Source: Erythrobasidium yunnanense (Eukaryota; Basidiomycota; Cystobasidiomycetes; Erythrobasidiales; Erythrobasidiaceae). From it: a DNA stretch of 64,000 bases. Position 1 is the first letter of the stretch; each line of letters begins with the position of its first letter. The stretch is from contig BCJC01000008.1 in NCBI GenBank assembly GCA_001600175.1, positions 1,180,781 through 1,244,780 on the forward strand, read 5' to 3'. Of this stretch, positions 50,555 through 53,164 are shown in pieces. The translations under genes were made by a program, and so were the position numbers. Below the pieces are notes generated by a model. It was not told the DNA's origin. It was given only the letters and a program-made list of their open reading frames with translations, and made no database searches.

Positions 50555-53164
50555 CTAATAGGCATACTTGGAGATATCACGTCCCCAGTGTCTGTGCTGG
50601 CCGATAGCATCGAGGAAGGTCTTTCCGAACGATGCAGCGGCCGACGCTCCCGTGAGCTTCTCCCACGCCGACGAATCTGATCCCACAAGGTTAGGCGCCA
50701 AGACGACACCGTTCTTTTCTGAGAAGGTATCTGCTCTGTCCGCCTTGATATCTGTACATCCAGGCAAGCATTCGTGCGCCAGCCAGCCTACTGCGTTTCC
50801 AGAGCATGCAATAGGCTTGTAGTGGCAGAACGCCTCGATAGCGAAATGCTTGACTCGGCCAACTTGGATGTTCTTCAAATAAGTCTCATTGCCACATGGG
50901 AAGAAGAGGGCATCGAAATAGGTAGATCGACACGACTCAGGAGTGAAGTCTGCACGCAGTTCACCAGCGGCCTTCTCATCGCCTGGTGTAACGTCGTCTG
51001 CCCAGACGGGACCGTGTCGTGTACCCACGAGCATGACGATCAGGCCTAGAGCGGTGTAGGCTTTCATCATAGCTCGTACTTGAGAACCACTGCATCCGTC
51101 TAAAGCCAGGATACCGACTTTACGGCCAATAGGGGTGAATGTGTTGTTCTTCGACAGAAGGGAGAGATCAGACTTTGCGGTTGTGTATGTACGTCCCTTC
51201 GTTGCGTCTTCAGGAATGGCGATTCCGAATCCTTCAGAGACGGCTTTTCCGAAATCAGGATGGATCTGAGCGAAGCGCGTCATCATTCTCTCTTGCACAT
51301 CTCGGTGCCTGCAGTGGCCGAGCTCAAAGACAGCTGCAGAAACCATATGTTCCTTCTCTACCTCCGACATACTGTTGTAGAAGAGCGTAGCTTGGTTGTA
51401 GGGCTGGTCTCCCTCGTTTGTGAACTTGGGTCCGCGAAGACGGGCTCTTACGCCTTCTACCTTGATAGCGGCGTGGTGTAGCCCACCTTCTGCAACAGGA
51501 GTAGGGTGAGGCATGCCCTCTCTGTTGGGCCAGTAGTTGGGTCCTTTCGGAATCTCAAAGCTCATCTGCCCATCGCGGTACAGTCCGACGTTGGCGAACG
51601 GGCACACAGGCTTGTTGATGGGTAGCTGTCGCCAGTTTCGGCCGACTCGAGACAGCTGAGTGTCGAGGTACGAGAAGTTTCGGATAGCAAGCATGGGGTC
51701 GTTCGAGTAGTCGATACCGGGTACGATGTGGCTCGTGCAGAAGGCGACTTGCTCAGTCTCGGCGAAGTAGTCGCTGTTATCGCATCTCAGCTAGTGACTG
51801 TGTATTGATTGTCATGCCAGCTTACGTGACGTTTCTGTTCAACTCCATCGTGCCGATGTTCTGAATTGGGTACATCTCCTCAGGCACATACTTTGTGCAG
51901 TCGAGGAGGTCGAAGTCGAGCTTGTCGCCCTCTTCAACGGGGATGATCTGGACACCGAGCTCCCACTTGGGGAAGCCGCCGGCCTCGATAGCCTGCAGAC
52001 AGGCAGTCAATATATGCACATTGCAAAGCGAAGAAAGATTGCTTACATCGTACAGATCTCGTCTATGGAAGTCCGGGTCTTGACCGTTGATTTTCAATGC
52101 CTCGTCCCATACGAAACTGTGGCTTCCGAGATGAGGAGTCCAGTGGAACTTCACATAAGTAGGCTTTCCCTCATCGTTGACGAGCAGATAGGTGTTCACT
52201 CCAAATCCTTGCATGTGTCTGAAAGATCGAGGAATGGTGCGGTCCGAAAGCTGCCAGGCGATCATATGCGTGGATTCGGGCATGAAGCTGATGAAGTCCC
52301 AGAAGCTATCATGCGCTGACTGTCCTTGAGGGATCTCGTTGTGAGGCTCAGGCTTGACAGCGTGAACGAGATCGGGAAACTTAATTCCGTCTAGCGAATG
52401 TACAGTTGTCAGTGATTCACATTATTGCGAAGCCGTAGAGAGGAGGTTACCCTGCGATGAGGAAAAAGGCCGAAAGTTAGCCAAATCGCTGCCATGTGAT
52501 AGACAGCAGTACTCACTTGAATGAAGAAGACTGGAATATTGTTGCCTATGCTACATATGTTAGACAGCAGTACTTACTTGAATAAAGGAAGATAGAGGTA
52601 GACGTACCTACGATATCCCAGTTACCTTCCTGGGTATAGAATCGAGATGCGAATCCTCTGACGTCTCTGACTGTATCCGCTGATCCTCTTGCACCTTGGA
52701 CAGTGGAGAATCGAACGAACATGGGGCAGGTGTATCCTGAAGTCGTGAGGACCTTGGCGGAGGTGATATCGGTAGACAGAGGTGTGTGGAGGGTAAATTG
52801 CCCATGTGCCCCGGCACCTCTGGCATGTATGACACGTTCTGGTACTCTCTCGTGGTCGAAGAAGTGGATCTTCTCTCGTCTGGATGCCACGCCGTCAGAA
52901 AACTTGGCTACAATTTGACCCAACTACCTACCCATGCTGATCCGCGAGATCCATTTGACCACGAGCTCCTGCCTTAAGCCACGTATCGGTATTCTCTACC
53001 TTAGCACCGAATAGAGTCTTGATGGCTGCGTCGCCAGCTGTGTGGTCGACGGTGTAGCCCTCGAGCTGGCTCTTTTTGGCATCTGATGAGACGTTGTTCT
53101 TGGCGACTGCTGCAGCAGATTTTGCTGGCATGCCATATTCGTATCCATTAATTCCTGGTGCCAT
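50555..53164 (-). CDS. Large-subunit catalase with C-terminal DJ-1/PfpI-like domain
   Basis: Haem catalase of the large-subunit clade, removing hydrogen peroxide. The catalytic His lies in Arg-Gly-Ala-Gly-Ala-His-Gly, the Asn in [11 protein letters not shown], and the haem-ligand Tyr in Phe-Ser-Tyr-Leu-Asp-Thr-Gln-Leu. The C-terminal about 170 residues form the flavodoxin/DJ-1-like domain of this clade ([10 protein letters not shown]). The start at 53164 gives Met-Ala-Pro-Gly-Ile-Asn. There is no signal peptide or obvious C-terminal peroxisomal tripeptide. To keep the conserved Gln-Asp-Gly-Ile-Lys-Phe-Pro-Asp, a single-nucleotide exon at 52451 is required between two canonical introns of 65 and 60 nt. 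The preceding exon (52545-52517) is 29 nt. Confidence 0.94.

Follow-up and report, generated by a model that had tools for sequence, protein, structure and literature searches.

The gene studied here lies on the minus strand of the window, by which we mean the whole 64,000-nucleotide stretch of Erythrobasidium yunnanense DNA that was analysed, taken from a genome of 20.9 Mb in 10 contigs. The predicted proteins near it, recognised by eye, are replication-factor-C-like, laccase-like and WD40 proteins. The gene itself encodes a large-subunit catalase: its product carries the Pfam PF00199 domain and a C-terminal extension alignable with the large catalases of fungi and bacteria, and its best PDB match in a phmmer search is 1sy7, "Catalase 1" (E 3.7e-200, residues 42-749 aligned). 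The six predicted introns, in minus-strand order, are 52931-52880, 52607-52546, 52516-52452, 52450-52391, 52046-51993 and 51825-51774, of which the third and fourth are separated by a single base. With this one G as an exon at 52451, the product is 754 amino acids long and contains one stop, at its end. The features are collected in Table 1.

Table 1. Features of the catalase locus; positions are those of the window.
Feature	Positions	Strand	Description	Basis
Large-subunit catalase gene	50555..53164	minus	ATG to stop, 754 aa, six introns in model	gene model and PDB phmmer best match 1sy7
Preceding intron	52546..52607	minus	62 nt, GTACGT...GCATAG, holds a copy of the 29-nt exon/65-nt intron junction	gene model and repeat alignment
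Direct repeat (38-39 nt), upstream copy	52554..52592	minus	wholly in the 62-nt intron; decoy donor CAA/GTAAGT at 52577	alignment
Coding exon	52517..52545	minus	29 nt, GC AAC AAT ATT CCA GTC TTC TTC ATT CAA	sequence
Direct repeat (38-39 nt), downstream copy	52493..52530	minus	runs from the 3' end of the 29-nt exon into the first part of the 65-nt intron	alignment
Intron upstream of the one-base exon	52452..52516	minus	65 nt, GTGAGT...TCGCAG; branch A at 52477 in the motif GCTAACT; held-out intron score at percentile 83	
Predicted single-nucleotide exon	52451..52451	minus	G, opens the Asp codon of FFIQDGIKFP	frame, splice enumeration, masked gene model
Intron downstream of the one-base exon	52391..52450	minus	60 nt, GTAACC...CGCTAG; branch A at 52409 in the motif ACTGACA; held-out intron score at percentile 29	

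Read on the minus strand, the region runs CAA, the 65-nt intron, G, the 60-nt intron and then AC GGA ATT AAG TTT CCC. The base at 52451 has AG before it and GT after it (CAG/G/GTAACC), it is needed for the correct frame and motif, and each flanking intron has splice signals of its own. The sequence-only reading had placed a 65-nt intron at 52516-52452, the G at 52451 and a 60-nt intron ending at 52391, which is exact to the base. It had also claimed that one long intron from 52516 to 52391 (126 nt) would shift the frame; this is so, and the shifted frame meets a stop 42 codons further on, so that skipping of the exon would bring an early stop into the message. Retention of either intron, or of both, likewise gives premature stops. 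The GT-AG ends and the normal sizes that it ascribed to both introns agree with the confident non-catalase gene models, in which 257 of 287 introns measure 45-75 nt, with a median of 58.

Can the same stretch be spliced in another way? Between 52543 and 52368 we enumerated every GT-AG solution with one or two introns of at least 35 nt, taking the 62-nt intron as spliced. Nine solutions are in frame and free of stops, six with a single intron and three with two, and all three of the latter contain the same one-base exon. FFIQDGIKFPD is retained by one of the nine, namely the one-base-exon structure of Table 1; all six single-intron solutions score lower and damage the motif. Thus the earlier statement that only CAA, G and AC keep the motif stands as far as the exact motif is concerned, having overlooked the six single-intron solutions that also stay in frame. 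Over the interval the one-base-exon structure scores 10.3 bits, which is 7.8 bits ahead of the next solution (2.5 bits, with the same one-base exon and a donor 12 nt further in), and the best single intron reaches -0.1.

A gene model built on codon usage and on donor, acceptor, branch and length terms, without homology, was trained on the window together with 20 sampled 10-kb stretches, 264 kb in total. It yielded 512 introns with a median of 58 nt, whose consensus approximates GTRAGY, GCTGAY and YAG; along its best path the catalase has exactly both introns and the one-base exon. Since the catalase was in this first training set, its region was masked for a second training (506 introns, 108 genes), after which the gene was decoded with the same six introns. 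The gene score falls by 10.4 bits when either inner site or the outer acceptor is masked, and by 7.6 when the outer donor is. Ranked against the 506 other introns, with the catalase kept out of the signal tables, the 65-nt intron stands at percentile 83 and the 60-nt intron at 29. At percentile 25, the single intron of 126 nt that shifts the frame comes close to the latter and is not itself poor, therefore the case rests on frame, protein and paired signals. The weak second donor, GTAACC, recurs in none of the 506 other introns, 81 of which lack the G at +5. Neither the 65-nt nor the 60-nt intron has an earlier AG between branch motif and acceptor, and the pyrimidine content from branch to acceptor is 73% in the former and 53% in the latter.

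The codon that the single G begins is conserved. FFIQDGIKFPD aligns without gaps to FFIQDAIKFPD of 1sy7, and the D of the motif is kept in all five PDB alignments printed, among 96 distinct matches. It is present, as read by eye, in both paralogous catalases of the same genome. Six of six bacterial relatives from a search of prokaryote genomes, all Pedobacter, also have it; the pattern used to find the motif in them already contained the D, yet it located the homologous site in all six.

How often does such an arrangement arise at random? Among 4,000 dinucleotide shuffles of the block, 112 contained a usable AG-N-GT split, none reached the observed paired score, and none had both introns scoring at least as high as the weaker of the observed introns. 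With the outer ends fixed and the core replaced by random genomic sequence, a usable split was found in 5,869 of 39,932 cases; the observed summed score was reached by 11 (three of them with G as the exon base), and 13 had both introns at or above the weaker observed one. A smaller run of random cores gave corresponding counts of 602, 1 and 4 per 4,000. A scan of both strands of the 264 kb that ignored frame found seven pairs of strong introns (45-80 nt each) lying 0-2 nt apart, of which the catalase pair has the top summed score. The arrangement is more than chance. The gene model can nevertheless invent tiny exons as a repair of frame: 18 of its 410 internal exons are of at most 12 nt, five of them of 0-1 nt. 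Two other 1-nt exons that it proposes (in L035 and L026) we disbelieve; they are built on introns of 139-140 nt.

The readings that dispense with a one-base exon have to be weighed against these results. A single long canonical intron could stay in frame in two ways, from the donor GTACTG at 52512 to 52391, giving FIQ-VN-GIKFP, or from 52516 to an acceptor within the following exon (ATTAAG, 52380), giving FIQ-FPD. Both are GT-AG and stop-free, and the second, at the 14th percentile of other introns, is not absurd. Yet their interval scores are -4.9 and -0.1 as opposed to 10.3 bits, and while the one-base-exon product scores 507.0 bits against the Pfam Catalase model, theirs score 496.8 and 488.4, a loss of 10.2 and 18.6 bits (the two-intron product with a moved first donor scores 496.7). 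The former swaps the conserved D for VN and uses a donor found in none of the 506 other introns, the latter deletes DGIK, and lengths of 122 and 137 nt are rare, at least 110 nt being reached by 11 of the 287 introns in confident models, just three of which score above 8. We regard a single in-frame intron as highly improbable.

A wrong base in the assembly, or a real lesion in this strain, beside one long intron is very unlikely. A single wrong base close to one or the other end of the interval would, by inference, keep such an intron in frame; however, 126 nt is unusual for a single intron in this genome, and the intron would moreover have to hold two full sets of signals around AG-G-GT by chance, as the 11 random cores did, and the remaining reading frame of the six-intron model is intact. 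A misread donor is unlikely too, as the diverged copy of the junction in the preceding intron has CAA followed directly by GTAAGT, a comparison that covers the donor end and not the acceptor end. Non-canonical termini, TG-AG or GT-TA, would also yield CAAGAC from a single intron; the enumeration covered GT-AG ends alone, but a fully canonical solution exists and such ends are not otherwise invoked, which leaves this the most far-fetched of the readings. We therefore take the locus to contain two ordinary GT-AG introns one nucleotide apart, with the G at 52451 as a constitutive exon that supplies the first base of the Asp codon, at a probability of roughly 0.87. Of the readings of the DNA, the one-base exon fares best: the frame, the conservation of the protein, the splice signals and the gene model from which the catalase was withheld all favour it.

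That the RNA is actually spliced in this way, and in a given order, we infer from the DNA. The upstream 65-nt intron is the stronger of the two, with GTGAGT, a CTAAC branch, a pyrimidine-rich tract and CGCAG, and would most likely be removed first. Its removal would leave CAAG/GTAACC, which on its exon side is closer to the donor consensus; the 60-nt intron would then be removed through its own CTGAC branch motif and CTAG acceptor. Because the 65-nt intron is stronger and its removal raises the score of the second donor (4.96 bits before, 6.21 bits after), we consider an upstream-first order likely. U1 bound to the second donor would cover the first acceptor. Given this overlap, simultaneous handling of the two introns is unlikely and removal in turn is probable. 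Introns of 65 and 60 nt fit intron definition. The sequence-only reading had gone further, in that the first splice was said to rebuild a donor. This does not hold, as GTAACC is intact beforehand and the exon side alone changes, from AGG to AAG. Recursive splicing is plausible here in a loose sense; strictly, these would be adjacent introns removed in succession, and no donor is created by splicing. Nor is this recursive splicing at a zero-length exon, in which acceptor and donor abut; here they are separated by one base, which the product requires.

The catalase exon joins a very rare known class, with few cases in plants and fungi, and is computationally well supported. The closest parallel is the one-base exon of Fusarium CYP621A, described by its authors as the first in a fungus and the second example overall (PMC12940212). 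There too, a fungal protein-coding gene has an exon consisting of a single G in AG-G-GT, the base falls in a codon of a conserved motif, and the paired introns together have about twice the usual length, 139 nt in CYP621A and 126 nt in the catalase including the exon (PMC12940212). The two differ in gene family and in the position of the base, the middle of a Gly codon in CYP621A versus the first base of an Asp codon, and whereas the catalase exon is predicted from DNA, CYP621A has the backing of 20 orthologues and of RNA reads from two species (PMC12940212). Nelson and Syed suggest that in CYP621A a base was lost and a cryptic AG-G-GT exon then came into use (PMC12940212).

In plants, a one-nucleotide exon has been reported in Arabidopsis APC11 (PMC4674806), and one-nucleotide microexons in APC11 and VPS55 (PMC8831610). 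As in the catalase, the base is required for the correct product (PMC4674806, PMC8831610), and for APC11 the authors suggest a stepwise removal that resembles the one proposed here (PMC4674806). The plant cases differ in that the Arabidopsis APC11 base lies 333 nt into a 422-nt stretch (PMC4674806), in that inclusion of the VPS55 exon is described as variable in some species (PMC8831610), and in having been tested by constructs, RT-PCR and RNA-seq (PMC4674806, PMC8831610), whereas the catalase exon is predicted from the genome. Single-base exons between introns of snoRNA host genes were described in the Candida parapsilosis group earlier than CYP621A (PMC5033589). These are also fungal introns one base apart, with an ordered splicing inferred from RNA-seq; unlike the catalase, the host transcripts are non-coding, and one cluster loses and regains splice sites through its order of splicing (PMC5033589). 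Mitochondrial cases are reported as well, with one-base exons between group II introns in fungi and in a gene of a placozoan (PMC12308204). Stwintrons (spliceosomal twin introns) likewise place two fungal introns at one position and need consecutive splicing (PMC12403724, PMC8469720), but there the inner intron splits an element of the outer one, be it the donor, the branch site or the acceptor (PMC12403724). Both donors, branch motifs and acceptors of the catalase pair are contiguous; as no splice element is interrupted, the pair is not a stwintron. In the open-licence literature, no title or abstract start named a one-base exon or microexon in a fungal catalase, and we found no paper on catalase intron positions in basidiomycetes.

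How did two introns come to lie one base apart? The origin that we prefer, as a conjecture, is a later arrival of the 60-nt intron one base downstream of an older one. The preceding intron holds one copy of a direct repeat (Table 1), offset by 61-62 nt from the other; the alignment scores 55, whereas the maximum of 2,000 shuffles is 30, and this is the sole clear similarity among eight pairings tested. The copy inside the 62-nt intron hints at intron gain. As that copy comprises an exon end and an intron start, the 65-nt intron probably predates the duplication of the junction, and tandem duplication probably gave rise to the 62-nt intron or reshaped it. A new intron produced by tandem duplication across an intron-exon boundary has been described in a potato gene (PMC4974935). 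For the 60-nt intron, alignment with the other five catalase introns (2,000 shuffles each) found no clear similarity, its alignment score being matched by 129 shuffles for intron 1, 1,709 for intron 2, 1,121 for intron 3, 92 for intron 5 and 578 for intron 6. A genome search with the 250-nt region returned the self-match alone, so at that sensitivity it is not a dispersed introner-like repeat. A bolder scenario, which we consider unlikely, would make the locus a small hot spot of recent intron gain: the junction of an older intron, the 65-nt phase-0 one, would have been tandemly duplicated, making or reshaping the 62-nt intron, and another intron would have landed one base past the acceptor. 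The exon would then be the scar of two introns that settled side by side, and its skipping (126 nt, early stop) could turn the catalase off under stress.

The decoy donor in the 62-nt intron is strong (8.8 bits); joined to the acceptor at 52391 it would be in frame, but a conserved 10-residue segment would be replaced. The other two catalases of this genome each seem, as read by eye, to have an intron within about 15 nt of the FF[IV]xD motif, at different exact positions. In the C7 copy (L009:1872-1929, plus strand) it follows the AT of the Ile codon, both ends having been checked; in the C1 copy (L010, from 3166 downwards, minus strand) it follows the G after the Gln codon, with the donor checked.

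One-base exons mark the lower limit of what the spliceosome can include, and they are easily missed in annotation; here, such an omission would leave the catalase frameshifted, too long or too short. Its two introns, of 65 and 60 nt and with overlapping recognition sites, make the locus a compact natural substrate for the question of whether removal follows a fixed order, and the repeat in the preceding intron may record the birth of an intron in fungi. Two further places in the sampled DNA have putative introns that abut directly. At 26982-26875 on the minus strand of the window, strong intron-like stretches of 57 and 51 nt meet at GCGACAG/GTACGC, a candidate zero-length-exon (recursive) site that sits within a weaker predicted gene (28302-26597, score 23.8). 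At L025:208-342 on the plus strand, introns of 64 and 71 nt are predicted with no base between them (TTTAG/GTAACT), which may be a recursive site or a single intron of 135 nt.
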